Part shown: positions 19,950-34,281 of the stretch, piece after piece
How the letters are laid out: every line of letters starts with the position of its first letter
How positions within the stretch are numbered: the first letter of the stretch is position 1
NCBI GenBank assembly: GCA_009917695.1
Contig: JAACJG010000004.1
Location: forward strand, 399,321-463,320
Direction of reading: 5' to 3'
Source of the DNA: Candidatus Rifleibacterium amylolyticum
Lineage (GTDB): Bacteria > Muiribacteriota > Ozemobacteria > Ozemobacterales > Ozemobacteraceae
DNA: 64,000 nt
Notes under the pieces: generated by a model
What the model was told of the DNA's origin: nothing
The model's database searches: none
The model's input: only the letters and a program-made list of their open reading frames with translations
Made by a program: the position numbers and the translations under genes

Positions 19950-20765
19950 ATGAAGCTTAAAAATATTGTGATGGTGCTGACAATTGTACTGTCGGCGATA
20001 TGTAGTGTCTGGGCGGGTGAGACTTTTCTGGTCGAGGACAAGGATGGCAGAAGCATTATTACGAATGATCCCGTGCTGGCATCAGGGGCGCGCAACGTAA
20101 AACCTCTCGGTAAGCCTGAAGGCCTTGTTTTTCCTGCTCACCCTCAGCGCAGGATTAAGAGGCCGCAGGCAGAAAGAATTCTTACAGGAATTTTTTCTGG
20201 CCGCGAAGAAGCTGGCGAAAACCCGGTTTCATTCGAAGATACCTACTTGCAGATGCCGGCAAGTCGACAGCCGCTCAGACAAAAGACTGCCGATACGATT
20301 GCCTGGATGGCGGAAGGCAGTCTTGTTTATCATGACCCCTTCCTTGAATGTGCGACCGGCACTGATCGCTTATGGGTCGATGATATAAAGGACCTGAGCG
20401 GCCTGGCACCCTGTGAAGAGTGCTTTATCAAAACAGCTCATGCGCCCGAGTTCATCAGAAATGAATCAGGTGGACTTGACCTGGCATCGGCCGCTGAGCT
20501 GCTTACAAATCAGCAGTTTCTTGTCTGGGCAGGCGAAAGATTGCCGATCAAGAACCCTGGTTTTATTTCTACTCGGCGGTTGCTTGTTTATCCAAAGATG
20601 GAAATGACCGAAGCTGGTTTGCGTCAGCTGGCGAAAGAGGTCGAAATGGCTTATCGTCGCCATACCTGGCGGGTTATTGAAGTGCTTGTTAAAAAGTCTG
20701 AAACAGACACAGACAGTATCAGCTCATTTGGCGAAGATCACGAAAAAGGTAGCGGTGATGACTGA
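19950..20765 (+). CDS. Exported protein with Ada-like Cys/His metal-site motif
   Basis: This is a 271-residue protein. The start is ATG 19950, since AGGAG lies six bases upstream; in-frame ATGs at 19935 and 19944 are less well placed. The signal peptide (NIVMVLTIVLSAICSVWA) is followed by an ETFLVEDKDGRSIITN segment. The centre holds Tyr127-His128...Cys134 and then Cys155-Glu-Glu-Cys158 (GLAPCEECF). This is the YHxxxxxC...PCxxC pattern of the Ada zinc-binding N-terminus and of exported nuclease tails. No other domain is recognised. The gene overlaps rarA by 8 bp. Confidence 0.75.
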   Translation: MKLKNIVMVLTIVLSAICSVWAGETFLVEDKDGRSIITNDPVLASGARNVKPLGKPEGLVFPAHPQRRIKRPQAERILTGIFSGREEAGENPVSFEDTYLQMPASRQPLRQKTADTIAWMAEGSLVYHDPFLECATGTDRLWVDDIKDLSGLAPCEECFIKTAHAPEFIRNESGGLDLASAAELLTNQQFLVWAGERLPIKNPGFISTRRLLVYPKMEMTEAGLRQLAKEVEMAYRRHTWRVIEVLVKKSETDTDSISSFGEDHEKGSGDD

Positions 20766-22107
20766 TCTTTTTGATTTTGCGAGCGGCAATCTTAAAAAGA
20801 GTGCACCATATCAGCCTCTTGCTGATCGTATGCGCCCTGATAAGATCGAAGATATCCTAGGTCAGGAACACATTCTTGGACCCGGCAAGCCACTGCGTAT
20901 GCTTATGCAGGCCGGATTGAGCGGTTCGATTATTTTCTGGGGTCCTCCAGGCTGTGGAAAAACTACATTGGCGCGCGTGGTAGCAAAGCATGCAGATGCT
21001 GAGTTTATCCAGCTGTCGGCAGTCACCTCTGGAGTAAAGGATCTTAAAGCCGCTTTTGACCAGGCTTATGAGTTGAGAAGGCGACTGAATCGAAAGACCA
21101 TGCTGTTTGTCGATGAGATTCACCGCTTTAACAAAGCGCAGCAGGATGCTTTGCTGCCTCATATAGAGTCGGGTGCCGTCGTGTTTGTCGGCGCCACTAC
21201 TGAAAACCCGAGCTTCGAAGTTATTTCCGCACTGCTTTCGCGCTGCCAGGTGCTTGTTCTCAAACCTGTTGCTGTAGAAGCTCTCTTGACCATATTGTTG
21301 CGTGCGGTAGACACCGATAAAAATCTGTGCCGTGCGCCCAGAATCGCCATCGAAGAAAGCGCTCTCGAGCGAATTGCTCTCATGGCAGCAGGCGACGCAC
21401 GAATAGCTTTAAATGTGCTTGAAACCTGCTGTGAGGTAGCCCGCCAGCAAAATCCAGAAGCTCCGGGTTTTGGCTCTGAACTTGTAGCCGAAACCTTTCA
21501 GAGTAAAATGCTGAGGTATGACAAGGGTGGTGAAGAGCATTATAACTTGATTTCAGCTCTGCATAAGTCGATGCGTGGTTCAGACCCTGATGCCAGTCTT
21601 TACTGGCTGTATCGAATGATAGAGGGTGGTGAGGACTGCCGTTTCATTCTACGCCGTATGATCAGATTTGCCTCAGAAGATGTTGGAATCGCCGATCCCT
21701 TCGCTCTTACTCTTGCCATGTCGACAGCACAGGCTTACGATTATATCGGCCCGCCGGAAGCTCATCTCTGTCTGGCGCAGCTGGCCGTATATCTGGCTGC
21801 TGCGCCCAAGAGCAACGCTTTGTATAAAGCTGAACGCCTGGTTAAGCAGACCATAAGAAACGGACAGGAGCCGTCGGTGCCTTTTCATCTCAGAAACGCG
21901 CCTACAGGTCTTATGCGCGAACTGGGTTACGGTCACGAATACAAATATCCTCATGATTTCAAGGGCAATTTTGTTGACGAGAATTATTTTCCAGAGGGTC
22001 TCGAAAATTTACGATTTTACGAACCGGGCAATAACGGACGCGAAAAGCAGACTGCCGAACGGCTCAATAATCTCTGGCCGCGTCGCTATGCTGGCAGAAA
22101 AGCCTGA
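20758..22107 (+). CDS. rarA: Replication-associated recombination protein A (AAA+ ATPase)
   Basis: This is a 449-residue RarA/MgsA/WRNIP1-family clamp-loader-like ATPase that acts at stalled replication forks. Near the N-terminus come the GQEHILGPGKPL motif, Walker A GPPGCGKTT, Walker B LFVDEIHRFNK and sensor ATTENPSFE. The C-terminal tetramerisation part includes RMIRFASEDVG and LGYGHEYKYPHDF, typical of the family. I use ATG 20758 (MTDLFDFA), which begins like known RarA proteins. The longer open frame from 20677 overlaps the previous gene and has no ribosome site. The GTG start of the HD gene follows at 22116. Confidence 0.95.
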   Translation: MTDLFDFASGNLKKSAPYQPLADRMRPDKIEDILGQEHILGPGKPLRMLMQAGLSGSIIFWGPPGCGKTTLARVVAKHADAEFIQLSAVTSGVKDLKAAFDQAYELRRRLNRKTMLFVDEIHRFNKAQQDALLPHIESGAVVFVGATTENPSFEVISALLSRCQVLVLKPVAVEALLTILLRAVDTDKNLCRAPRIAIEESALERIALMAAGDARIALNVLETCCEVARQQNPEAPGFGSELVAETFQSKMLRYDKGGEEHYNLISALHKSMRGSDPDASLYWLYRMIEGGEDCRFILRRMIRFASEDVGIADPFALTLAMSTAQAYDYIGPPEAHLCLAQLAVYLAAAPKSNALYKAERLVKQTIRNGQEPSVPFHLRNAPTGLMRELGYGHEYKYPHDFKGNFVDENYFPEGLENLRFYEPGNNGREKQTAERLNNLWPRRYAGRKA

Positions 22108-22115
22108 GGCAGTCT

Positions 22116-22598
22116 GTGGCAGATTGTGACAATTTTATAGTCTGGTGGCTCAAAAGAGTTGCATACCGTATATGGCAGTTCAAGCAGACAGTTCTGCCGA
22201 GGCTTGATCGTGTCGCATGGCATGAGGCAGTCAGCGATCTACCGCCGACTGTTCAGGCGCATCTTGCCTCATTGAAAAAATCAGAAAAAGCGCATATTCT
22301 CAGGGTCTACCGGGCTGTCAAAGCCAGTCGCCAGATCAACGATGAAGAGAGGCGTGAATTGATGCAGATGGCTTTGCTGCATGACATCGGTAAAGCAATT
22401 ATCAGATCCAGCGTTTTCATGAAAGTTGCCCGGGTCTTTTTACCTCTTGGCCGCAACGAGCACTGCATAGCTGGAGCTCGTCTGTTACATCGCCTTGGCT
22501 TTGAGCGTGCTCTGGTCAAACGAGTTCTGCGTCATCACACTTTTGACCACGGCGACCGTCTGTTGCGGATATTTCAAGAGATAGACGACAACAGCTGA
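22116..22598 (+). CDS. HD-domain protein
   Basis: This is a 160-residue cytoplasmic protein with a single HD domain. The conserved metal motif is ALLHDIGKA, followed by NEHCIAGARLLHRLG and the C-terminal HHTFDHGDRLL. HD proteins hydrolyse phosphate esters, often nucleotides, but this short type has no assigned substrate. The start is GTG 22116, eight bases after the rarA stop, so it is probably co-transcribed with rarA. Confidence 0.75.
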   Translation: MADCDNFIVWWLKRVAYRIWQFKQTVLPRLDRVAWHEAVSDLPPTVQAHLASLKKSEKAHILRVYRAVKASRQINDEERRELMQMALLHDIGKAIIRSSVFMKVARVFLPLGRNEHCIAGARLLHRLGFERALVKRVLRHHTFDHGDRLLRIFQEIDDNS

Positions 22599-22616
22599 TT
22601 GGCTGTAAAATAAAAG

Positions 22617-22645
22617 TTGTCTATAAGACATTAAAATAGTATCAT
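22617..22645 (+). promoter_or_regulatory. Ferritin promoter with palindromic operator candidate
   Basis: TTGTCT (22617-22622) and TATCAT (22640-22645) are spaced by 17 bp. The perfect palindrome TGTCT-ATA-AGACA (22618-22630) covers the -35 and part of the spacer, where a repressor would block transcription. It does not look like a textbook Fur or PerR box. Confidence 0.5.
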
Positions 22646-22677
22646 TTGGGTGTAATACTTAATCCAGGAGGAATTTC

Positions 22678-23202
22678 ATGTTAGCAAAGAAAATGGAAAC
22701 AGCACTTGTTCATCAGGTTTATGAAGAAATGTATTCGTTCTATCTTTATCTTGCCATGGCAGAATATGGTGTCGGCGAGGGCATGCCGGGGCTGCATCAC
22801 TGGATGCGGAATCAGGCACTTGAAGAGCTCAGTCATGCAATCAAATTTATGAATTACATCGCCGAGAAGGGTGGTAAAGCTGAATTAAAAGCTCTTCAGT
22901 CGCCGCCAAAGAGCTGGAAGTCCGCAAAGTCGGTGTTTGAAGAGGCTCTCAAACATGAGCAGCACATTACCGACTGCATCAACAAGCTTGTTGATCTCGC
23001 CATTTCTCTCAAAGATCATTCTACTGTTAACTTTCTCAACTGGTTTGTTGCCGAGCAGGTTGAAGAAGAAGCCAGCGCTCAGGGTGTTATCGATATGATC
23101 AAGTTAACCGGCAATGCCCCCGGCGGTATGTTTATGGTTGACCGCGAGCTTGCAGCCCGTCCGGCAGCACCGCATCCACTTATGCCTGCCACAACCGTCT
23201 GA
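22678..23202 (+). CDS. ftn: Ferritin (iron storage)
   Basis: This is a 174-residue non-haem ferritin that stores iron as a ferric mineral in a 24-subunit cage. Ferroxidase ligands are visible in the YEEMYSFYLYLAMAEY helix, in EELSHA (the E-x-x-H pair) and in the EQVEEE helix. Length matches bacterial FtnA. A strong AGGAGGAATTTC precedes the ATG. It is a single transcription unit with its own promoter and a hairpin terminator shared with the convergent M50 gene. The C-terminal tail (AARPAAPHPLMPATTV) is slightly longer than usual. Confidence 0.95.
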   Translation: MLAKKMETALVHQVYEEMYSFYLYLAMAEYGVGEGMPGLHHWMRNQALEELSHAIKFMNYIAEKGGKAELKALQSPPKSWKSAKSVFEEALKHEQHITDCINKLVDLAISLKDHSTVNFLNWFVAEQVEEEASAQGVIDMIKLTGNAPGGMFMVDRELAARPAAPHPLMPATTV

Positions 23203-23220
23203 TATCTCAAAGAGCCAGAA

Positions 23221-23260
23221 AACGCCCCCATCAACGACCAAGGCCGGTAATGGGGGCGTT
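23221..23260. terminator. Bidirectional intrinsic terminator between ftn and M50 gene
   Basis: AACGCCCCCAT (23221-23231) and ATGGGGGCGTT (23250-23260) form a perfect 11-bp stem with an 18-base loop. On the minus strand the stem is followed by a short T run, so termination is better for the M50 operon than for ftn. Confidence 0.8.
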
Positions 23261-23271
23261 AAACTTTGCTA

Positions 23272-24105
23272 TTAATACTGTAGACCGCCTGCTTTGAAAC
23301 GCATCAGATAGATGCCGATCTCACGGTATGGGTCGCCAAAGAGTTCGTTCAGAAGATTAAAAGAATAACCTATTGCCGGTGACAGTATTACGCCCAGTCC
23401 ACCTACAGCGAACAGGATGAGCAACAGCATTGGAGCCATCTGCTCAAACTGTCTGTATTGAAGGCGATAGCGGTTTGGCAGAAAATATGAAGTGATACGG
23501 GAGCCGTCGAGTGGGGGGATGGGCAGCAGATTGAATAGTGCCAGGCTGAGATTGATGATTATCAAAGTTTGACAGAACTTCAAAAGCAGAAATATGGTGG
23601 TTGGCGATAATGCAAAAACGCTTATGCTTGCTGCAAGAGCTTTGAGCAGTGCCGCTCCAATAACAGCCAGAAACAGATTCGATAAAGGGCCTGCCAGGGC
23701 CACTGACAGCATTGCGCGCTTTGGTATCCGAAAATTGGCTGGATCGACGACAACCGGCTTTGCCCAGCCAAAGCCGGCAAAAAACAATAACATCGTGCCG
23801 AATGGTTCAAGGTGACGCAGAGGATTCAGGCTCAGACGCCCCATGCGTCTTGGGGTCGGATCGCCAAGAAAGTCGGCCATCAGTGCATGTGCGTATTCAT
23901 GTATTGTCAGCGACAAGAGAATGATTGGCACCAGAAAGATATAATAGAATGCAGAGTCGAGAAGAGAGCCGCTGGACTGTAAAGCCAGGCTGACGGCAAA
24001 AAGAAAGACGATCAGTCCGCCGATTACCAGAAGGCGGTTGAAAGATTCTGGCGGCATACCGCCAGGCGGTGTGAATTTATAAATTCTGGTATAGCTGTTT
24101 GGCAA
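23272..24105 (-). CDS. Site-2-protease-like membrane metalloprotease (M50)
   Basis: This is a 277-residue multi-pass membrane protein. The zinc motif HEYAH (residues 69-73) is in the second half of a hydrophobic helix. The second metal site is FNLLPIPPLDGS, which supplies the Asp. This is the short M50B type, without PDZ or CBS domains. Such enzymes cut membrane-bound substrates, often anti-sigma factors or regulators. It is the last gene of the SpoIIE/GGDEF/HD-GYP operon, and its start overlaps the tRNA nucleotidyltransferase gene by 29 bp. Its substrate may be a regulator connected to that operon, but none is identifiable. Confidence 0.88.
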   Translation of the reverse strand: MPNSYTRIYKFTPPGGMPPESFNRLLVIGGLIVFLFAVSLALQSSGSLLDSAFYYIFLVPIILLSLTIHEYAHALMADFLGDPTPRRMGRLSLNPLRHLEPFGTMLLFFAGFGWAKPVVVDPANFRIPKRAMLSVALAGPLSNLFLAVIGAALLKALAASISVFALSPTTIFLLLKFCQTLIIINLSLALFNLLPIPPLDGSRITSYFLPNRYRLQYRQFEQMAPMLLLILFAVGGLGVILSPAIGYSFNLLNELFGDPYREIGIYLMRFKAGGLQY

Positions 24106-26698
24106 GTGCCAGCTCCTCTTCTCGCGTAAATCGCGAGCCTTTAAGTTTTTGTTCGATTATACGACTGAATATATTGCGCATGTGTGGACCCGGCTTAATT
24201 CCTTCTGCGATAAGATCATTTCCTGAAATATCGCATTTTATACTACGCCAGAACATGATGAAATGAAGAATTTTTCTGGCATTACGTTTGTCGAGAGCGA
24301 AAGCCATGACCGAAAGCATGGCTTCGAGCGACAATTCATGCAGCAGATAATACAGAGCAGTGGCATCGGTTTCTTCAATTTTTGTAATAGCCGTTGGAAC
24401 AGTCTGTATGGCGGCGAGAGCCTGTAGAATAAGTCTGCGTCGATTGTGTGGCGTTCCCAGAGCGTCGAGAATCTTTTCGGTGTTGTCATTTCTAATCACC
24501 GAGAGAATACCGGTCCAGAAGATGGCTTCGCTGTCGATTTCTTCACCAAGAGGCTTGAAACGTTTTATCAGACTGCGAATGAGCTTGAATCTTCCCGGCA
24601 AAATGTCGGCGTCGATCATTTCAGGGCTCAGATATTTCATCAGGCCGGCCGAAAAAAGGTCAGCAACAATCTGCTGTGGTCGTTCTTCATTAAGACAGCG
24701 CGAAATCTCTGCTCCGATGCGCTTTAAAGAAAGCTTTTCCGGGGCTTCTCGATTTATGGCAAGTTCGAAGGCCCGCTGAGTATCCTGTTCAAGAGCAAAG
24801 TTGAAACGTCCGGCGAATCTTATGGCCCTGAACAGTCGGGTCGGGTCTTCGAGAAAACTGAACGAATGTAAAATTCGTATGCGTCGGTTGAGCAGGTCGT
24901 TATAGCCTCCAAAAAAATCCTTCAACTCAAGAAAATGTTCGGGATTGAGTGACAGAGCCAGAGTATTTATAGTGAAATCACGTCGATAAAGATCGTTTGA
25001 CAAGCCACTGAACTCAATCTGTGGCAATGCTCCCGGGTCAGAATAATGTTCTATGCGGGCAGAACTGAAATCGATTTTGAGATCCTCAAGGTATATTCTG
25101 GCTGTATGAAAACGGTCGTAAACCTTATAGTCACATGCAAATTCACGGCTCAGTTCAATCGCAAATGGTATGGCATCACCAATAACTACAATGTCGATGT
25201 CGAAATTCTGACGCTCGAGCAGCAGGTCGCGTACGAATCCACCGACAGCAAAAGTATTCACGCCCTGTTGCCCGGCAAAGCGGCCTATCTGCTGGAGTAT
25301 GTGGTAAATGCGCAAAGAAAACAGAAGCTTAAGCAGTTTCTCCAGTTCACTTGATGTTGGCAAACTCACCTGCTCGGCCAGCGGCAGAAAATCATGCGGT
25401 AGTGGCAGGTAGTCAGGCAAAGAACGCAGAAGTTCGTGAGTCGTAATGATGCCGACCACTTCTGTGCCGTTGAGTACAGGCAGCCGGGTCAGGTTATAGC
25501 GAACCATCAGATTCTTCAGAACGCGCACTGGCGTGGTCGGGCTGACGATCGGAACGCTGGTTGGCACATACGGCCCTATTTCTGAGTCGAGCAGATTCAT
25601 CTGCAGAGCCCGGTCGAGATCACGGCGGGTAACGATGCCGGCAAACTCGCCCTTCTGCATGACGATGAGTGACATTATGTTGAATTTGAGCATAGTGTCG
25701 AATGCGTTTCGTACACTTGCGTGCCAGTCGATACACTGTGGTGAAGCAGACATGATGTCGCCGGCGGTGAGGTCTGGCTGCAGGTTTTGTTCAAGATGCT
25801 GCAATACCCGACTGCGGTTCTGCTCGTGCCCGGCCCCAGAAAAGCTGAAATAAACCCAGTTACGTAATCGAGCTGGCCTGAAATCAGCGAATATTTGACG
25901 AAAGTCTATCTGTGATATGCTGCTTCGGCACCACACCCTGGTAAAATTGCCAAAGGTGAGAATGAGCATTAGAACCGGCGGTGAGGTGTCTGACCATATT
26001 GCATCGACGACTGGTTCAATGTCTTGAACCTGGTTTCCGACCTTGACGGCGACAAGAGTAACAGGCCAGTAGCCCGGCTGAATATCTTCTATATTTTTCA
26101 GCATCTGCCGATAAAGAGCGGTTTGCCCTTCGTGCATGCCAAGAACAACAGTATTGGCAATGCGGCCGGGCGGCATTGTCTGACGGTCAAGAAAAGCTAT
26201 TGCTTTCTGATCTTCAGGCTTAACGCGGGCAGAAAGACCAGCCCAGGTTTTTTCGGTGACTGCAAGTCGAAACATCTGCATATCTTCGTTCGAAAATTTC
26301 AGGTGTTGATCACGCAAGCGGTTAACCAGCCATGCCGTCAGGCTCATTGCGCCGCAAAACTCGGTTTCAACCTCAAGCGGCAGTGTCGCTGAGCGGTCGC
26401 TTATAACAATAACGCGTGGCGAAAATTTTGCTATGGCTTCGATAAATTCCTGATTTTGCTTCAAATGTGTGATGCCGACCAGGTAAACCGTCTTAAGTGC
26501 CGCAAAATCAACATTCTCAAATTTTACTGTTTTAAACCAGTCAAGACGCCGGGCTGTATCCCAGGTGTTCTGGTGAAATCGTACCGGGTGCAGAATGGCT
26601 GCATCAGGATTCATAAGCAACAGACACCTTGCTGCTCCCAGATGATCGAGATCAGCATTGTGCGGAAAAACGATAAGCTTATGAGGACAGTTTTTCAT
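24077..26698 (-). CDS. DHH-CBS-PcnB multidomain tRNA nucleotidyltransferase
   Basis: This is an 873-residue protein. Residues 1-300 resemble the DHH phosphoesterase fold (HNADLDH at 13-19), but the DHH motif itself is replaced by SDRS (100-103). Two CBS domains follow at about 315-435. The class II nucleotidyltransferase head starts near 475 (VGGFVRDLLL, FDIDIVV) and continues with RRDFTINTLAL and the RNA-binding region. The family adds A or CCA to tRNA 3' ends; whether it adds C as well cannot be judged by eye. The CBS pair suggests adenine-nucleotide sensing. It lies 12 bp after the HD-GYP gene. Confidence 0.88.
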   Translation of the reverse strand: MKNCPHKLIVFPHNADLDHLGAARCLLLMNPDAAILHPVRFHQNTWDTARRLDWFKTVKFENVDFAALKTVYLVGITHLKQNQEFIEAIAKFSPRVIVISDRSATLPLEVETEFCGAMSLTAWLVNRLRDQHLKFSNEDMQMFRLAVTEKTWAGLSARVKPEDQKAIAFLDRQTMPPGRIANTVVLGMHEGQTALYRQMLKNIEDIQPGYWPVTLVAVKVGNQVQDIEPVVDAIWSDTSPPVLMLILTFGNFTRVWCRSSISQIDFRQIFADFRPARLRNWVYFSFSGAGHEQNRSRVLQHLEQNLQPDLTAGDIMSASPQCIDWHASVRNAFDTMLKFNIMSLIVMQKGEFAGIVTRRDLDRALQMNLLDSEIGPYVPTSVPIVSPTTPVRVLKNLMVRYNLTRLPVLNGTEVVGIITTHELLRSLPDYLPLPHDFLPLAEQVSLPTSSELEKLLKLLFSLRIYHILQQIGRFAGQQGVNTFAVGGFVRDLLLERQNFDIDIVVIGDAIPFAIELSREFACDYKVYDRFHTARIYLEDLKIDFSSARIEHYSDPGALPQIEFSGLSNDLYRRDFTINTLALSLNPEHFLELKDFFGGYNDLLNRRIRILHSFSFLEDPTRLFRAIRFAGRFNFALEQDTQRAFELAINREAPEKLSLKRIGAEISRCLNEERPQQIVADLFSAGLMKYLSPEMIDADILPGRFKLIRSLIKRFKPLGEEIDSEAIFWTGILSVIRNDNTEKILDALGTPHNRRRLILQALAAIQTVPTAITKIEETDATALYYLLHELSLEAMLSVMAFALDKRNARKILHFIMFWRSIKCDISGNDLIAEGIKPGPHMRNIFSRIIEQKLKGSRFTREEELALAKQLYQNL

Positions 26699-26710
26699 GG
26701 CGGTCTGACG

Positions 26711-28906
26711 CTATTTATCTATGCCTTCGCGTTTGAGTATTTCAAAAAACACCTTGACGATCTCGGGATCGAGCTGGCTGCCGGCAGCTTTTTTCATTTC
26801 CTGTCTGACAAATTCGAATGGAAAAGCCTTGCGATAAGGGCGATCGGCAATCATCGCGTCGTAGGTGTCAGCAACAGCAAGAATTCTGGCGCCAAGAGGG
26901 ATCTGGTCGCCCTTCAGGCCTAGTGGATAACCGGTTCCATCGAATCTTTCGTGGTGATAAAGCGTCAAAGGAGCAATTTCTTTCAGTATTTCGACGCGTT
27001 CCATAATGCTGGCGCCGTATTCAGGGTGGCGTTGCAGTTCTTCTATTTCTTCGCTGGTAAGCCTTTCCTGCTTGGTCAAAATGACATCCTTTATGCCGAT
27101 TTTGCCGATATCGTGTAACAAGCCGGCATACCTAACGGTTTCGAGTTCTTCTTCAGTCAGGCCAAGCTCAGTTCCAATTTTGACCGCGTATTCCATGACC
27201 TTGGTGCTGTGGCCGTGTGTATATGAGTCTTTTGCTTCTATGGCTGCGGCCAGTGCCATGACCATTGACAGGTATTGCCGCTTCATTTCAGCATACAGCT
27301 GAGCATTCTCGATAGCGATGCTGGCTTGAGAAGCAAAGGTAGACAGCAGATCTATTTCATCCTGTGAAAAGTCGCGAGGTTTGCTGGTGTAAATGGTAAT
27401 TACGCCAATAGGTCGCCCTCGCTGCATGATTGGTACGGCCAGCAGACCAGCCAGCTTTTCGCGTTTCACCAGACTTGTATATTTGGTGCGTGGATCCTTG
27501 CGGGCATCAACCACCGAAATTGGCAGGCGTTGCGAAAAGCAGCTGCCGATGATGCCTTCGCCAATTTTTATTGCTGTCGATGACAAAAATGATTTTGATA
27601 AACCACGTGAAGCTCTGACTTCGAGGAGTTCTCCGGTCGAATCGAGCAGCCGCAGTTCACAGCGCAGTGCGTTCATCATTTCCATCGAAAAGTTGACGAT
27701 TGAGTCGAGAACCTCGTCGAGTACCAGTGTTGAGGTGATCGACTGCGAAATTTCGAAAAGAACTGAGATTTCATCAATGCGGCGTTCGAGGTAAAGTCTG
27801 ATCTTCACATTTTCGATAGCCGTCGATAGCAGGTTGGATAGTGTGGTGAAGGTACGCAGATGTTCGCGGTTGAAGGCTTTCTGACGCGTTGCGGACAGGT
27901 TTATCAGGCCAATGTTTTTGCCCTGGACAGTAAGTGGTACAGTCATGAAAGACTGAATTTTACGTCTGAACACTTTGTCCATGCTCATGGCGTTCTGACC
28001 AGGCAGGAACAGCTGTTGACAGCGGGTAATTCGTGCCGGTTTGCCGCGGATCTTAAGACTGATATCGTCGATGTGCCCGGTGAGACTGTCGAGGCTGGCC
28101 GGAGCAAGTGGCAGACGTGAAATGAAGTAGCGGGTTTCTTCGTCATCTTTGAACAAACAGACGATTCCGAGATCATGACCAATCAACTGCGCCAGATATT
28201 CAAATGACAGACCGATCAGGCCTTCGAGTGTCTGTACAGAAGAGAACCTTTTGGCGAGTATATTCAGTTTTTCCATCTCGCGAATGCGATTCTCACGTTC
28301 CTGTAGCAGCCCGCTATGTTCGATTTTCATGGCGGCCAGGTTGGCGTAAACTGTTGCTTCTTCAAGGTCGTTCACGTTGAATGCCTTGGTGCGCCCGATG
28401 TTGCCTACTACCATCAGACCGACGCACTGTGTGTTGGTGGCGAGCGGAATTATCATGGCAGACTTGAAGGGAGCGTCTTTGAAAAGAGGATCGTGCATTT
28501 CGCCGGTATACAAAAGTCTCTGGCGGCATGAAAAGGCATTCCGAAGCAGTAATGCTTCAGCGCTCAACACTTCTTCGCTGGTCATGGACTCAGTCGAGCA
28601 AGGTGCAAAACCAAATTCTTCTTCAGAATTAATTATGGTGCGGCGGTCGAGGCATCTGATCTGATTTGGGCGTTTACGTTTCGAGCCGCTGAAAGCAGTA
28701 AAACAGAGCTCGAAGGTTTCGCGGTCAAGCAGCATGAAATAGATTTCGTCAGCCTTGATCGCTTCTCTTGCTGATTTGGCCATGTTTTTCAGCAGTTCAA
28801 CGAGATCAACTCCAGATGAAAGAGCCATGGAAAGATCGGAAAGGCGCGAAAGGCGTTCAAAAGTTTGTTCAGTCGAGTTAGCTGGTCGTGATTTTCTTTC
28901 AGGCAT
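26711..28906 (-). CDS. GAF-domain HD-GYP cyclic-di-GMP phosphodiesterase
   Basis: This is a 731-residue cytoplasmic protein. Three GAF-like sensor domains cover roughly residues 15-190, 215-360 and 385-530. The HD-GYP domain occupies about 545-731. Its key motifs are all present: YTHGHSTKV, LLHDIGKIG, HPEYG, HHERFDGTGYP and ADTYDAM. It is therefore expected to hydrolyse c-di-GMP to pGpG or GMP. No membrane segment is seen, so it senses intracellular ligands. It overlaps the GGDEF gene by 8 bp. Confidence 0.93.
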   Translation of the reverse strand: MPERKSRPANSTEQTFERLSRLSDLSMALSSGVDLVELLKNMAKSAREAIKADEIYFMLLDRETFELCFTAFSGSKRKRPNQIRCLDRRTIINSEEEFGFAPCSTESMTSEEVLSAEALLLRNAFSCRQRLLYTGEMHDPLFKDAPFKSAMIIPLATNTQCVGLMVVGNIGRTKAFNVNDLEEATVYANLAAMKIEHSGLLQERENRIREMEKLNILAKRFSSVQTLEGLIGLSFEYLAQLIGHDLGIVCLFKDDEETRYFISRLPLAPASLDSLTGHIDDISLKIRGKPARITRCQQLFLPGQNAMSMDKVFRRKIQSFMTVPLTVQGKNIGLINLSATRQKAFNREHLRTFTTLSNLLSTAIENVKIRLYLERRIDEISVLFEISQSITSTLVLDEVLDSIVNFSMEMMNALRCELRLLDSTGELLEVRASRGLSKSFLSSTAIKIGEGIIGSCFSQRLPISVVDARKDPRTKYTSLVKREKLAGLLAVPIMQRGRPIGVITIYTSKPRDFSQDEIDLLSTFASQASIAIENAQLYAEMKRQYLSMVMALAAAIEAKDSYTHGHSTKVMEYAVKIGTELGLTEEELETVRYAGLLHDIGKIGIKDVILTKQERLTSEEIEELQRHPEYGASIMERVEILKEIAPLTLYHHERFDGTGYPLGLKGDQIPLGARILAVADTYDAMIADRPYRKAFPFEFVRQEMKKAAGSQLDPEIVKVFFEILKREGIDK

Positions 28907-31016
28907 TCTTCAATCTGCTTTCCTTGAATGTCGTCACCCGGTTGCGACCGGTGTCTTTTGCCTTGTAAAGCGCGAGGTCTGAAGCTTCGATAAGATCAGA
29001 AGGTTTTTCGCAGCTGGTAATACTGGTGCAGGCTACTCCAATCGACAGGGTTACGGCGAGTTCTCGGTTTTCGTCGATGACTCGCGATTCTTCAACTGCC
29101 GCGCGAATACGTTCAGCAAATCTGCTCGCGCCCTCAATAGATGTTTCTGGCAGAATAACGGCGAATTCTTCCCCGCCATATCTGGCGACTGTATCGATCT
29201 GTTCACGCACAGAATTTTTGAATACTGCGGCAACATGGCGCAAAACCTTGTCGCCAACGAGGTGCCCATAGGTGTCGTTAAACTTTTTAAAAAAGTCGAT
29301 GTCGATGAGCATCAGCGATAGTGGCTTTGTATAACGTTTTGCGCGTGTGAACTCATGGCTTAGAGTTTCCTGGAAATAGCGGTGGTTGAAGAGTTCGGTC
29401 AATGGGTCGGTAAAAGCGAGTTTTTCGGTGCGCTTGTGTATAAGTGCGTTTTTGATGCTGGTTATAAAGATACCGGTGAACTGTGAGGTGCTGTCGAGAT
29501 CGCTGGGATTGAAAGGATCGTTGTGGCGGCGTGCCAGGTGTATAAGGCCGCGCACTTTATCACCGATAACTATTGGCAGGTGCAAGGTGTGTTTGTAGTC
29601 CGCTGCTGGTTTGGCATGATGAGTCTGAGGCTTGAAAAATATCGGTTTGCAGAAGTTTTCCTGGGACAACGGAGGGTCAGAGGGGAAGTCGCTGAACAGG
29701 TTGAAAATCTGCTGCGTGAGCTTTTTCTGGTAGCCCACTGATACTGGTTCGTCGGGTTGCACGATGAGGCGGTAACTGTTCTCTATGTCGTCAAACAAAA
29801 GAATAGAGATGGTAGTGAAGCCGATTACCTTGTTAAAATTGTTGAAGGCTTTCTGAAGAATTGTGTAAGGATCCAGGGTTGAGGTCAGATCCTTACTGAT
29901 CTCAAGAAAATAAAGATTGCGCTGGTTGGTGCGGTAAAGCATATCCTGGTCTTCGCTGATAAGTCTGATCATATTCTCGCGTTCTATTGCCATGCTCAGG
30001 TTCTGTGAAACCAGATAGAGAAAGCGATAGTGTTTGCCAGCCTGGCGAGAATCATCTTCGAGATAACGACGACTTACCAGAAGCACGTGTGAAGGTTGTC
30101 CTTCTACCAGCAGCGGAATACAGAAGAGCTCATGGATGTTGCCATCTTTCTCTTCAAACGAAAGAGTGGGAGGGCGCAATACTTCAGATTCGGTTGAAAA
30201 CAGGCCTTGTGACTGCGAAATCTGCATCTGCATGCGGGCTGAAACCGACTTGAACATCTGTTGCAGTAGAGTTGGCTTGAGATTGTGGGCAGCCAGGATA
30301 TCGAATTCAATTTCTTTATCTGATTTGACGGTCAGGTCGAGATTTCTTTTGATTTTCAGGATTGCCAGTCGTTGCAGTCCGAGCTCATCTGAAAGCTTTT
30401 TGAGAAACTCTTCAAGTCGTCCGGTAAAGTCATTGGACTCTGATAAAATACTTGAGATTTCATACAGGCCGGCGATTTCGCGTCGGTTTTCTTCGATTGC
30501 GTCAAGCAGGCTCTCTTTCTCGATAAGGCTGGCAATCATGGTGTCGACTGCTTTGAGTCGGGTGAGATCGAGATCGGTAAAGCTCTTCTGACTGGCGGGG
30601 CGATTAAGATTCATCACTCCGATGAGCTTTTTATTGATTTTGAGAGGAATCGACAAAAATGAACCGCTGTCGTTCTTTCGTCGCAGCTTTGCTTTGATCT
30701 CAGCTTGTGCAGCGTTTTCCACGACAATAGGTCGGCCGCTTTCAAACACTCTGCCGGCGATACCTTCTTTGACGGGAATTTCGGCCACCAGGCCGCTTTT
30801 CTGAGTTTTATGAGCGGGATGATGTGATGAAACATAAAGTTTGAGGCTGTTGCTCTGTTTGTCGTATACCATTATCGAGCCAGACGCCGCATTCATATAG
30901 TTGACAGTTTCAGAGATAATCGATTCAACAAGTTTATGCAGATCTTTGGTTTCGGCGGCTTTTTCGGCCAGACGGGCATGAAAATCGAGAATTGTATCAA
31001 GTGTGTGTTCGTTCAT
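28899..31016 (-). CDS. GAF-domain diguanylate cyclase (GGDEF)
   Basis: This is a 705-residue protein with GAF-like domains over residues 1-520 and a C-terminal GGDEF domain at about 535-700. The active-site motif is ARYGGEEF, and the metal Asp lies in LMLIDIDFFKKFND. It makes c-di-GMP from GTP. The RxxD inhibitory site expected just before the motif is not intact (VREQIDTVARYGGEEF has one extra residue), so product inhibition may be lost. It overlaps the SpoIIE gene by 4 bp and the HD-GYP gene by 8 bp. Confidence 0.93.
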   Translation of the reverse strand: MNEHTLDTILDFHARLAEKAAETKDLHKLVESIISETVNYMNAASGSIMVYDKQSNSLKLYVSSHHPAHKTQKSGLVAEIPVKEGIAGRVFESGRPIVVENAAQAEIKAKLRRKNDSGSFLSIPLKINKKLIGVMNLNRPASQKSFTDLDLTRLKAVDTMIASLIEKESLLDAIEENRREIAGLYEISSILSESNDFTGRLEEFLKKLSDELGLQRLAILKIKRNLDLTVKSDKEIEFDILAAHNLKPTLLQQMFKSVSARMQMQISQSQGLFSTESEVLRPPTLSFEEKDGNIHELFCIPLLVEGQPSHVLLVSRRYLEDDSRQAGKHYRFLYLVSQNLSMAIERENMIRLISEDQDMLYRTNQRNLYFLEISKDLTSTLDPYTILQKAFNNFNKVIGFTTISILLFDDIENSYRLIVQPDEPVSVGYQKKLTQQIFNLFSDFPSDPPLSQENFCKPIFFKPQTHHAKPAADYKHTLHLPIVIGDKVRGLIHLARRHNDPFNPSDLDSTSQFTGIFITSIKNALIHKRTEKLAFTDPLTELFNHRYFQETLSHEFTRAKRYTKPLSLMLIDIDFFKKFNDTYGHLVGDKVLRHVAAVFKNSVREQIDTVARYGGEEFAVILPETSIEGASRFAERIRAAVEESRVIDENRELAVTLSIGVACTSITSCEKPSDLIEASDLALYKAKDTGRNRVTTFKESRLKNA

Positions 31017-33787
31017 GCAGACGCTTTTCCTTTGAATTTGAGGGTCAACACCGTAAGGTCGTCATGAGCTTCAGCTGTTCCTCGCCATTTCATCGCGGCA
31101 GAAATCAGCGCCTCGCCGATATCTCTGGCGCTTTTTCCTGAGTATTCATCAAAAATAGCCTGAATTCGCTCACTTCCGAACATATTTTTTTCTTTGGCAC
31201 CTTCTTCAGAAAGGCCGTCGGTATACATTATCAAAGCATCTCCGGCTGTCATGGTGAATGGATTCTTGTCATAACCCGTTACTGCAGGTATGCCAAGAGG
31301 GGGGCCGCTTCTGGTCTCTACCAGTCGGATATTGCCGGCAAGCTTAACCATCAGGGGGCCATGACCTGCCGATGACATCTCGCTGTCACCGGTGACAGGG
31401 TCTATCGCCACCAGTTGCAGGGTTACGAAGTGATATGAATCAAGCTCCAGGGCCAGTTTGCTGTTGACCTTCTCGAGTATGGCTACCGGGTCTGAACACT
31501 CCTGGACGACCTGTCTGATGATCATGCGGGTGACAACCATCAAAATGGCTGCTGGCATGCCTTTGCCAGATACATCTCCGAGCACGGCGAGTTGTCTGCC
31601 GTCTTCAAGGGTGAGAATGTCGAAAAAGTCACCACCTATCTGGCGCGCCGGTATGCTTCTGCCAAACATTTCTATCGATTCAGGCAGGTCAGAAAAACTT
31701 TTTGGCATAAGTGACATCTGTATGTCACGGGCGTCACTCAGCTGGCGTTCAAGCAGGTCTCTGTCGTGGCGCTCTTCCATCAACCTGACATTTTCGAGTG
31801 CGGTGACGACGAGGTGAGCAATTGCCTCCAGCAACTGCTGATCTTGCACGGTAAAAGTCAGGCCGTTGGTTTTGTTGTTAACATTGATGACACCGATAAC
31901 CTTCTTGCCGGCGCTACCACGCTGTATTACCAGAGGAACCGACAAAAGCGAGCGGTTGAGATAATGCTCCATCGAACGTTTTTTAAAGATGCCTTCAGAT
32001 TCAATGTTGTCGATACGATAAGAGCGCCCCTGCTGTGCAACATAGCCTGATATTTCTTCGCCGATAGGGATTCTGGTTTTTTCTATGATGCCGGGGGGGA
32101 GCCCGAATCCTTTTTCAATCTGAAGGTATTTTCCGCTTTCGTCTACTTTGAGATAGGAAATTCGGTTAACTCTAAGCAGACGCCTTATGATAACGATCAT
32201 TTCGTCGAGAAGAGCGTTTGAATCTGAGAGCTTTTCCATCAGGCCTTCAAGGGCATTGATGGTAGCCAGTTTTTCTGAATAATTGCTGGCTACTTGAAGT
32301 GCGGCGCTCATACCATTAAGGAGAATCGGCATAAGGGCTGCCAGGTCTTCTTCGGCCAGGGGTTTGTTGAGAGCGGATTCAAAAAGAATTACGCCGCCCA
32401 GCGATCTCAGCGGCAGAAACTCAGTATTGATGGCAGTCGCCTGCGGCGTCGTCGCCAGCGGAAGAACGTAGCGAATAGGCAGCGGATAGTGCCCGTTGCG
32501 ATTGTCAAAAGCGGAGCCCTCAGTAATTGCATCTATTACCGGGCCTTTGTTTCTGATGAGCTCGTTTATGTCAAGTTCTTCCGGTTTCTGACCGCCGAGA
32601 TAAGCTGCAAGGCTCAACTCTGAAGTATCACGAGAAAACATAAGTATTGCGCCTGAATATTGACCGAAAAGGTAATTCAGGCTTTCGACCAGCTTGTAAA
32701 GAATGGCATCGATATTGACAGAAGAAATTATGGTATTACAGGTCTGGTTTATCTGCTGCAGAATACGACCATGTCTGGCTTCTTTGCGCAACTGATAATA
32801 ATGACTGAAATATAGACCAAGCTGGTTCGCCAGGGTTGGCATGAGTTTCGACCGGTGACTGATGTGGCGTCTGAAGTGGTCGCCAGACAAGAGAAAGCCG
32901 AGATGACCGTAAGTCTGGCCGCCAGCCTGGCAGGCGAAGACCAGTGGCGACAGATTCTGGCTGTTGAATTCCAGATTCCCGCTACCCACAGTAGCTCTGG
33001 TGATTATCGCGTGCTTTTCAATCTTGTACTGGTGCATGGCGATTTCGATCATTTCTTCAATTTCATTTTTGCTGAGCTCGTCTTCGCAGGCAGCCATGAC
33101 AGTTATCTGATTGTAAGCGTCAGGCCCGGCTTGTTGAAGCACAAAAACCGTATGAAAGTTAAACGCCCGCTGAAGCTTCAGCAGAAAGCTGGTCAGCATC
33201 GGACTGTCTTCGTCAAACCAGATTTGGGCCTGCCTTTGCTCATAGCCGGGGGCGGGAGGCAGTGCGTCAGCGTGTCTGCTGGTGTTGAGGAGTTTCTGCG
33301 TCTCGTGCAGAAAAGCCAGCAGGCGATCGGAACTTTCTATCTGGCTTCTGACCAGATGCAATGGAAACAGAAACTTGCTACAGATCTTTTCGGCCAGATG
33401 ATCTGCAAAAAAATGCCATTCCCTGATGCTTGCCCTGGTTTCTGTGGAAATCATCAGCAGTTGATCGCCAAAATGCGATTGATCGACCATATATGGACTT
33501 ATAATAGTGATATACTTCTGGCCGCCAAGTTCACGCACCAGCAGATCTTCTGGACGCTCTGGCAGAGTCTCGGCACGCAGGTCGTAGAGTTCGTCGATGG
33601 AGAACCTGGAAGCTTCGTGCAATTGAAGCTCTTTCCATTGCTGACCTGAGCTGCCGGTGTAAAGTCGCAGCACCAGACCACGATATTCTTTGAAATCTCG
33701 AAAAAGGTCGAAGCCGCTGCTGGAAAGGTCGCTGAAGCGCGGCAACTCTTCGGCTTCAGTCAGTGCGTTCAAAAAAGCTGTTTTCAA
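31013..33787 (-). CDS. GAF-domain SpoIIE/RsbU-type protein phosphatase
   Basis: This is a 924-residue cytoplasmic protein. Several GAF-like domains are present; the best runs over about residues 520-665 (IPIGEEISGYVAQQG, LLSVPLVIQRG). The C-terminal PP2C-like SpoIIE domain (about 680-920) has GGDFFD, GDVSGKGMPAA and MYTDGLSEEGAKE, which hold the metal-binding Asp residues. Such enzymes dephosphorylate STAS-domain anti-anti-sigma factors. No STAS or anti-sigma gene lies in this window. TTG at 33787 is the start, preceded by GGAG. It is the first gene of the operon. Confidence 0.92.
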   Translation of the reverse strand: MKTAFLNALTEAEELPRFSDLSSSGFDLFRDFKEYRGLVLRLYTGSSGQQWKELQLHEASRFSIDELYDLRAETLPERPEDLLVRELGGQKYITIISPYMVDQSHFGDQLLMISTETRASIREWHFFADHLAEKICSKFLFPLHLVRSQIESSDRLLAFLHETQKLLNTSRHADALPPAPGYEQRQAQIWFDEDSPMLTSFLLKLQRAFNFHTVFVLQQAGPDAYNQITVMAACEDELSKNEIEEMIEIAMHQYKIEKHAIITRATVGSGNLEFNSQNLSPLVFACQAGGQTYGHLGFLLSGDHFRRHISHRSKLMPTLANQLGLYFSHYYQLRKEARHGRILQQINQTCNTIISSVNIDAILYKLVESLNYLFGQYSGAILMFSRDTSELSLAAYLGGQKPEELDINELIRNKGPVIDAITEGSAFDNRNGHYPLPIRYVLPLATTPQATAINTEFLPLRSLGGVILFESALNKPLAEEDLAALMPILLNGMSAALQVASNYSEKLATINALEGLMEKLSDSNALLDEMIVIIRRLLRVNRISYLKVDESGKYLQIEKGFGLPPGIIEKTRIPIGEEISGYVAQQGRSYRIDNIESEGIFKKRSMEHYLNRSLLSVPLVIQRGSAGKKVIGVINVNNKTNGLTFTVQDQQLLEAIAHLVVTALENVRLMEERHDRDLLERQLSDARDIQMSLMPKSFSDLPESIEMFGRSIPARQIGGDFFDILTLEDGRQLAVLGDVSGKGMPAAILMVVTRMIIRQVVQECSDPVAILEKVNSKLALELDSYHFVTLQLVAIDPVTGDSEMSSAGHGPLMVKLAGNIRLVETRSGPPLGIPAVTGYDKNPFTMTAGDALIMYTDGLSEEGAKEKNMFGSERIQAIFDEYSGKSARDIGEALISAAMKWRGTAEAHDDLTVLTLKFKGKASA

Positions 33788-33824: not shown

Positions 33825-33853
33825 ATTATATTCTTTTCTTCTCCCTATTTCAA
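33825..33853 (-). promoter_or_regulatory. Promoter of the signalling operon (minus strand)
   Basis: On the minus strand TTGAAA (plus-strand 33848-33853) and a perfect TATAAT (33825-33830) are separated by 17 bp. The leader to the TTG start is about 30 bases and includes GGAG. Confidence 0.7.
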
Positions 33854-34017: not shown

Positions 34018-34281
34018 ATGGCTAATACCAAGTCAGCTGCTAAAAACGCAAGAAAAGCTGCCCGTCGTCATACTCTTCGGGTATCTGTAAAGTCCGAGCT
34101 CAAAACTCTTCGCAAGAGAGTTATCACTGCTGCCGAAACCAAGGCTGCAGATGTCAATGAAGTTACCAGAACCGCAATCAAGAAATATGCCAAGGCAGCT
34201 TCTAATAAATACATTCATCCCAAGACAGCCGCCAGAAAAATCAGCCGTCTCATGAAAGCTGTCAACAGATTGCAGGCCTGA
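34018..34281 (+). CDS. rpsT: 30S ribosomal protein S20
   Basis: This is an 87-residue S20 that binds 16S rRNA early in 30S assembly. The N-terminus MANTKSAAKNARKAARR and the C-terminal IHPKTAARKISRLMKAVN are characteristic. The start is ATG 34018, since AAAGGTGA lies just upstream; an upstream GTG at 34009 would only add MNV. It is flanked by its own promoter and a strong terminator, and faces holA, a common rpsT neighbour. Confidence 0.97.
   Translation: MANTKSAAKNARKAARRHTLRVSVKSELKTLRKRVITAAETKAADVNEVTRTAIKKYAKAASNKYIHPKTAARKISRLMKAVNRLQA

Follow-up and report, generated by a model that had tools for sequence, protein, structure and literature searches.

Organization of the locus

Our analysis concerns five adjacent genes on the minus strand of contig JAACJG010000004.1 from Candidatus Rifleibacterium amylolyticum (genome size 5.39 Mb, in 35 contigs), studied within a stretch of 64,000 nucleotides (contig positions 399,321 to 463,320) that we refer to as the window and to which all coordinates apply. 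In the order of reading, they encode a SpoIIE-type phosphatase, a GGDEF-type diguanylate cyclase, an HD-GYP-type phosphodiesterase for cyclic di-GMP (c-di-GMP), a tRNA nucleotidyltransferase and an M50-type protease (Table 1). The gene order is conserved across the bacterial family to which the organism belongs, and the operon is made up of two modules with separate histories, a signalling trio (SpoIIE-GGDEF-HD-GYP) and a nucleotidyltransferase-M50 pair. With moderate confidence, we interpret the locus as a conserved, family-specific operon that arose from two older units and in which a SiaABCD-like signalling system would be co-transcribed with a tRNA-end/protease pair. As far as our searches reach, it is a new, lineage-specific combination of known parts that has not been described so far: our literature search, judged mostly by title and the start of the abstract, returned no published description of such an operon among the papers listed, in agreement with a preliminary description of the locus, made from its sequence alone, whose author did not know it as a described operon.

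Table 1. Genes and predicted signals of the operon and its divergent neighbour (window coordinates).
Feature	Position	Strand	Basis
SpoIIE/PP2C-type Ser/Thr phosphatase, 924 amino acids	31013-33787	minus	open reading frame list, Pfam
GAF-GGDEF diguanylate cyclase, 705 amino acids	28899-31016	minus	open reading frame list, Pfam
GAF-HD-GYP c-di-GMP phosphodiesterase, 731 amino acids, three GAF matches	26711-28906	minus	open reading frame list, Pfam
tRNA nucleotidyltransferase (A-adding/CCA-type, class II), 873 amino acids, two CBS domains	24077-26698	minus	open reading frame list, Pfam
Degenerate DHH/DHHA1-type domain (putative pseudo-phosphodiesterase) of the nucleotidyltransferase	25784-26698	minus	profile and Foldseek matches
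M50 (site-2 type) intramembrane zinc protease, 277 amino acids	23272-24105	minus	open reading frame list, Pfam
Predicted promoter TTGAAA-N17-TATAAT, with AAAAG kept two bases 5' of the -10 box	33825-33853	minus	motif scan, conservation
Predicted intrinsic terminator hairpin 3' of the M50 gene	~23217-23260	minus	read by eye
rpsT (ribosomal protein S20), divergent neighbour outside the operon	34021-34281	plus	Pfam

The open reading frames, junctions and Pfam domains all agree with the preliminary description, which had reported overlaps or gaps of at most 12 bases. From the SpoIIE gene onwards, the junctions measure -4, -8, +12 and -29 bases, the last value representing a 29-base overlap of the M50 gene with the nucleotidyltransferase gene. 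The promoter proposed for the operon ends 37 bases ahead of the SpoIIE start codon and fits the promoter pattern at 11 of 12 positions, making it the best of 16 promoter-like matches in the region. Because 13.4 matches are expected by chance, this fit proves little by itself. The call is supported by the conservation of the block TTGAAA...AAAAG..TATAAT, which is kept in the window and four genus-level relatives amid some 290 upstream bases that have mostly diverged. Four more distant loci of the family carry a similar, looser element, and none was seen upstream in the family locus G014. Within the window, the extended pattern including AAAAG fits without mismatch at a single place.

The terminator that had been noted 3' of the M50 gene is likewise present, with a stem of 11 base pairs, a loop of 18 bases and a TTTTCT tail, all read by eye; our hairpin scan considered loops of up to eight bases and, hence, did not list it. 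At the same position, two related loci (L032 and L034) have other strong hairpins, each followed by a T tail, a third (L033) an imperfect hairpin and a fourth (L035) one whose T tail is poor, and no hairpin was visible by eye 3' of the M50 gene in four more distant loci.

Conservation within the family

Families and genera are given provisional labels here (f1, g1 and so on), with the window's genome, G000, belonging to family f1. Neighbourhoods were read in 24 f1 genomes as far as their contigs reach, leaving out SpoIIE, GGDEF and HD-GYP matches below 60 bits. All five genes lie in the same order and on the same strand of one contig in 15 of them (G000, G001, G002, G003, G005, G009, G010, G012, G016, G018, G019, G020, G021, G022 and G023), although the SpoIIE frame of G021 is broken. 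Pieces of the operon meet at contig ends, consistent with the five-gene order, in another three genomes (G004, G008 and G015), and the contig ends before the order can be read in two (G006 and G007). The remaining four show altered arrangements: the trio and the nucleotidyltransferase-M50 pair lie apart in G013 and G017, split exactly at the HD-GYP/nucleotidyltransferase junction; the SpoIIE gene is absent upstream of the GGDEF gene in G011, whose SpoIIE protein, encoded on another contig, reads GDVSGKD; and the HD-GYP gene is missing from G014 together with the N-terminal half of the GGDEF gene.

The order persists at sequence identities as low as 33% (SpoIIE, G022) and 37% (nucleotidyltransferase, G010). 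Tight packing is equally widespread, with the genes either overlapping or no more than 15 bases apart at 62 of 70 junctions in the relatives (start codons picked by a script) and an overlap of 23-62 bases between the nucleotidyltransferase and M50 genes at 19 of the 20 junctions measured. The HD-GYP gene is the most conserved of the five in each of the 14 complete loci from relatives, reaching, for instance, 80% identity in G012, compared with 53-66% for the others.

The neighbourhood search suggested in the preliminary description thus reveals neighbours that do not change freely, and since the order is kept across the family, the linkage is not a matter of chance. A fortuitous linkage or an assembly artefact might be envisaged in a genome as rich in SpoIIE, GGDEF and HD-GYP genes as that of the window, but it is refuted by the recurrence of the order in 15 genomes at such low identities and of the trio order in four genomes outside the family, so that we assign it a negligible probability.

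Two modules with separate histories

The idea that the five genes constitute one combined device is borne out with regard to their linkage and its conservation, but the operon looks like two modules of separate origin rather than a single five-part device. Outside f1, the trio is found as consecutive genes in the same order in four of 15 genomes of the phylum, namely G027, G034 (f5), G026 (f4) and G024 (f2); in G026, G027 and G034, rpsT is its divergent neighbour, just as it is in the window. In reverse searches against the window's genome, the f5 HD-GYP protein retrieved the HD-GYP protein of the window operon first (E-value 5.6e-125, next match 3.8e-104), and the f4 SpoIIE protein retrieved the SpoIIE protein of the operon first (1.0e-71, next match 1.7e-45). 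A lone receiver-domain gene, absent from the window operon, stands between the GGDEF and HD-GYP genes in G026 (L097:4968-5408) and G024 (L143:3191-3640). The cluster may thus have comprised four genes originally, with the receiver gene as the one that the window operon lacks.

The second module also occurs independently. The nucleotidyltransferase and M50 genes are adjacent in G026 (f4), on a contig without the trio. Of 386 genomes, 157 contain nucleotidyltransferase matches, and among 23 distant loci drawn from these, the pair is present in four (G278, G232, G390 and G397), a proportion that is not an unbiased rate, because the loci comprise 20 mostly better-scoring ones plus G043, G048 and G051. 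In G232, the pair is followed by genes that resemble trpS, ileS and lspA when the N-termini of their products are inspected by eye. In G352, there is a weak M50 match at a distance of three genes from the nucleotidyltransferase gene, and no M50 gene adjoins the latter in the three f5 loci. The motifs of the window's M50 protein are intact (HEYAH and PIPPLDG); the HExxH motif is found in 20 of 20 family sequences and PxxDG, searched as a pattern, in 18 of 20. As a separate observation, G028 (f6) has an HD-GYP gene whose product is 36% identical to that of the operon, followed by a 95-residue open reading frame and an M50 gene, with no nucleotidyltransferase gene in between (L140:7599-10796).

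Signalling proteins of the trio

Two alignments comprised 22 (A1) and 19 (A2) of the available sequences. The motif counts do not include the GGDEF proteins of G008 and G015 or the HD-GYP proteins of G008 and G020, for which the open reading frame caller had chosen other frames. The identification of the first gene product as a SpoIIE phosphatase holds, as it retains the motifs GDVSGKG and HDDLT, but its GAF-like sensory domains had previously been missed. Pfam places a GAF domain at residues 524-666, and an AlphaFold model (predicted local distance difference test score 81, predicted template modelling score 0.44) suggests, by its secondary structure, further GAF-like domains N-terminal to it; the best Foldseek match of this model is the PP2C domain of SiaA. 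The last GAF domain (residues 516-675) is more conserved than the PP2C domain in eight of nine comparisons and contains four residues, N638, K639, F645 and D649, that are invariant in 19 of 19 sequences and, presumably, resemble the NKFDE motif of cyclic-nucleotide-binding GAF domains. It also matches the GAF structures of PDE2A and PDE5A in the PDB, which provides a lead rather than proof.

The GGEEF active site is present in all 22 family cyclases examined. None of them has the RxxD motif of the I-site, the arginine lying one place too far upstream, whereas all four cyclases from outside the family do. Although the I-site is not universal among diguanylate cyclases, this distribution suggests that product inhibition of the cyclase has probably been lost in the family.

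The HD-GYP protein retains its catalytic signature, with HHExxDGxGYP and HDIGK found in 20 of 20 family sequences spanning the region, including that of the window. Its closest solved relative is 4mcw, annotated as a metal dependent phosphohydrolase (residues 380-722, E-value 5.4e-51); the two are alike in the catalytic region, and the window protein has intact HD and GYP motifs, differing by its further N-terminal GAF domains and its operon setting. As for SpoIIE, the last GAF domain tends to be more conserved than the catalytic domain (seven of nine comparisons), whereas the second GAF domain is so in only two of nine.

These conservation patterns bear on a simpler explanation, in which the trio serves a general growth-state response without cyclase control of the SiaABCD type and the five genes merely share a strong, growth-linked promoter near rpsT. 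The near-consensus, housekeeping type of the promoter is consistent with this idea, as are the divergent rpsT gene in several families and the position of the nucleotidyltransferase-M50 pair beside trpS-ileS-lspA-like genes in G232. However, the higher conservation of the last GAF domain in the HD-GYP and SpoIIE proteins, from which the GGDEF protein departs, argues for a specific input rather than mere dosage, and rpsT is located elsewhere in the family genomes G006, G014, G021 and G022. We therefore regard housekeeping co-expression as possible but unlikely.

The nucleotidyltransferase as a putative A-adding enzyme

The fourth gene had been named PcnB in the preliminary description. This name is a misnomer, and an identity as PcnB or poly(A) polymerase was rejected, because the enzyme is closest to A-adding and CCA-adding structures. 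Its C-terminal half most resembles the CCA-adding enzyme of T. maritima (3h37, E-value 5.5e-61), in agreement with a Foldseek structure search, followed by the A-adding enzyme of Aquifex (1vfg/4wbz, ~1.6e-48), while the Aquifex CC-adding enzyme (3wfo) scores only ~4e-9. The NCBIfam model of A-adding enzymes, NF041569, is matched at positions 8-877 of 880 by residues 13-870, DHH and CBS domains included (E-value 1.5e-107). In addition, the head loop between the DxD and RRD motifs comprises 69 residues in the operon enzyme and in the 11 family members parsed, compared with 60 residues in a second PolyA_pol protein of the same genome. A shorter head-domain loop is described as a hallmark of CC-adding enzymes in a passage of PMC3925840, and the long loop is a hallmark shared by A-adding and CCA-adding enzymes.

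By sequence, the second PolyA_pol protein, encoded on contig 11, matches the CC-adding enzyme 3wfo over residues 26-487 (E-value 3.4e-55) and A-adding 1vfg at only 8.7e-7. At least two PolyA_pol matches are found in 18 of the 24 family genomes and a single one in six. These comparisons make a split CC/A pathway likeliest, in which the operon enzyme would add the terminal A and the contig 11 enzyme would add CC. The A-only activity is inferred, because an AaL-like enzyme of T. maritima adds the whole CCA (PMC3925840), and the operon enzyme may do the same. The window's enzyme thus resembles the A-adding enzymes (Aquifex aeolicus AaL, NF041569) and the T. maritima CCA enzyme in its full-length model match, C-terminal half and long loop, but differs from them by its lack of DHH motifs, a score far under the cut-off, its place in a c-di-GMP operon and the reduction of its gene to a core in three genera of the family.

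A degenerate DHH domain and CBS domains lost in three genera

The description of the fourth product as a tRNA 3'-end enzyme with CBS domains stands but had overlooked an N-terminal DHH/DHHA1-type domain. Residues ~1-305 adopt this fold by prediction, followed by the two CBS domains at ~306-445. Profile searches matched the N-terminal region to 9r7o, 5o1u and 9n0l, and Foldseek matched it to DhhP with root-mean-square deviations of 11.6-15.3, values suggesting that the relative placing of the subdomains differs or is uncertain. The domain shares its fold with phosphodiesterases of the Nrn/DhhP type, but none of the 15 family sequences aligned has the DHH triad, the DTG motif or the GGGH motif. 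DHH is present in each of 21 region-spanning sequences from outside the phylum; the two f5 sequences that cover the region lack it as well, and the f4 sequence is truncated ahead of it. Judged by these losses, the domain appears to be a pseudo-phosphodiesterase.

Seven genomes from the genera g5, g10 and g11 have lost the DHH domain as well as the two CBS domains, and the remaining core of ~430 residues keeps the same operon slot. In a tree of 45 rows, the short and long family forms constitute one clade (support 95/100), with a short subgroup (93/97) and a long subgroup (93/93); one sequence occurs twice in it (L028/L058), L057 has a long branch, and L006, L032, L033, L038, L039 and L047 are not included. 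Domain loss is the simplest reading of this common clade, which does not support an in-place replacement of the nucleotidyltransferase by an unrelated short gene.

The preliminary description had further proposed that the CBS domains act as sensors linking tRNA status to signalling. Such domains are indeed present in the window, but the proposed tie is weakened by the loss of the DHH and CBS domains in three genera that keep the slot and by the T. maritima enzyme, whose Nrn and CBS domains are not needed for CCA addition according to a portion of PMC8208693. The same evidence bears on a fully coupled scheme, in which the CBS/DHH region senses nucleotides or the state of tRNA, the protease monitors the envelope, and the two act on the c-di-GMP and partner-switch enzymes within a single pathway. 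The tight linkage across the family fits this scheme, as do the 39-91% identity of the CBS region among the six long forms compared and the kinship of the DHH-domain fold with c-di-AMP phosphodiesterases. However, the DHH motifs are lost in all family sequences aligned, the whole region is deleted in g5, g10 and g11 with the slot kept, and the modules are separate in G013 and G017 and lie apart outside the family in G026 and G027, which renders full coupling improbable. It is even more speculative, and in our view very improbable, that tRNA 3'-end completion itself feeds into, or is driven by, the c-di-GMP/partner-switch circuit. In that case, the CBS domains and the degenerate DHH domain would bind a messenger without cleaving it, the trio would adjust the supply of charge-ready tRNA, and the pseudo-phosphodiesterase would be a receptor that became dispensable in genera with a rewired circuit.

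A proposed SiaABCD-like signalling unit linked to a tRNA-end/protease pair

The reading we prefer, a family-specific operon built from two older units, finds its closest parallel in the SiaABCD system of P. aeruginosa. There, the phosphorylation state of SiaC depends on a phosphatase and a kinase, and its dephosphorylated form activates the cyclase SiaD (PMC7278518). Both operons combine a SpoIIE/PP2C-type phosphatase with a GGDEF cyclase, and the SiaA PP2C domain is the best structural match of the window's SpoIIE protein. The window operon differs from SiaABCD by the addition of an HD-GYP phosphodiesterase, by the two unrelated genes that follow, and by the lack of a SiaB kinase or SiaC partner, for which the five open reading frames leave no room (no genome-wide search was made). 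Moreover, SiaA is predicted to reside in the membrane, whereas the only families recognized in the window's SpoIIE protein are GAF and SpoIIE (no membrane predictor was run). Partner-switch phosphatases of the RsbU/SpoIIE type (B. subtilis SpoIIE, Rv1364c) are similar in their PP2C motifs and fold, but no RsbV or RsbW gene adjoins the window's SpoIIE gene, whose product has a string of GAF-like domains as its input region.

By analogy with SiaABCD, ligands bound by the GAF domains could switch the SpoIIE phosphatase and gate the enzymes of the trio. The phosphatase, in turn, may dephosphorylate a STAS-type partner encoded elsewhere in the genome, which contains 13 STAS and nine HATPase_c_2 (RsbW-type) matches over the Pfam cut-offs outside the operon. 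The cyclase and the HD-GYP phosphodiesterase would together set the c-di-GMP pool; as the cyclase has no I-site, its partner would have to limit the pool and may thus serve as a brake. The tRNA enzyme, which could add A in concert with a CC-adding enzyme encoded elsewhere, and the protease would most likely be tied to the trio by shared transcription alone.

Several findings weigh against parts of this interpretation. Within the family, the five-gene order is altered in four of the 24 genomes, and the HD-GYP/nucleotidyltransferase gap widens to 95 (G020), 148 (G010) and 326 bases (G008), thereby leaving room for a separate promoter. Outside the family, the trio members are only 22-45% identical to those of the window, the f5 SpoIIE protein matches only over residues 546-917 or less, and orthology by reverse search covers only two genes (f5 HD-GYP and f4 SpoIIE). 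No trio lies at rpsT in eight of the ten neighbourhoods read there, which means that parts of the phylum do not share this arrangement; of the other two among the ten, that of G024 is on a contig too short to tell and that of G030 is cut by the contig end, with a GAF-like open reading frame in the right place. G032 and G033 gave no rpsT match (trios elsewhere in these genomes were not searched exhaustively). Neither SiaB/SiaC-like nor STAS/RsbW genes occur within the five-gene operon. In the GGDEF protein, the catalytic domain is better conserved than the GAF and N-terminal regions in ten of ten comparisons, so that a common ligand for all three trio proteins is not indicated. As to the nucleotidyltransferase, its best structural relative is a CCA-adding rather than an A-adding enzyme, and its NF041569 score of 360.9 bits falls under the curated cut-off of 1440.

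The operon is a specific, conserved object for study in a phylum for which no signalling study appears among the titles listed in our literature searches. Intact operons, the split modules of G013 and G017, the HD-GYP loss in G014 and the loss of the DHH and CBS domains represent natural experiments. The locus also provides examples of a diguanylate cyclase without a product-inhibition site that shares an operon with an opposing phosphodiesterase, and of a tRNA 3'-end enzyme in which the phosphodiesterase domain has been stripped of its motifs and, in some genera, has vanished. Should a GAF input be identified, it would link control by second messengers to the capacity for translation in a way that can be tested.

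Genomic surroundings

In a contig search, the nearest named relatives were three metagenome-assembled genomes of Candidatus Riflebacteria and one labelled Erysipelotrichia. The latter (SABV01000006.1, L035) carries the operon at 62-86% identity, and its label is probably wrong. At its 3' border, the window's operon is flanked by genes for a RarA/MgsA-type ATPase, a small HD-domain protein and a ferritin-like protein (positions 20758-23202). This border is common to the g1 and g8 loci read, and the ferritin gene has no match in the loci of other genera.

Elsewhere in the window's genome, contig C7 (positions 6000-52000; L201-L203) contains nine frames of 962-1025 codons, of which six form a head-to-tail series with the other three nearby, and a tenth that is cut by the end of the stretch examined there. 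Six of the nine, as well as the tenth, coincide with SpoIIE matches. Their pairwise identity of 21-36% tends to alternate, the first, third and fifth frames being more like one another than like the second, fourth and sixth, and the array looks as if a gene pair had been duplicated several times.

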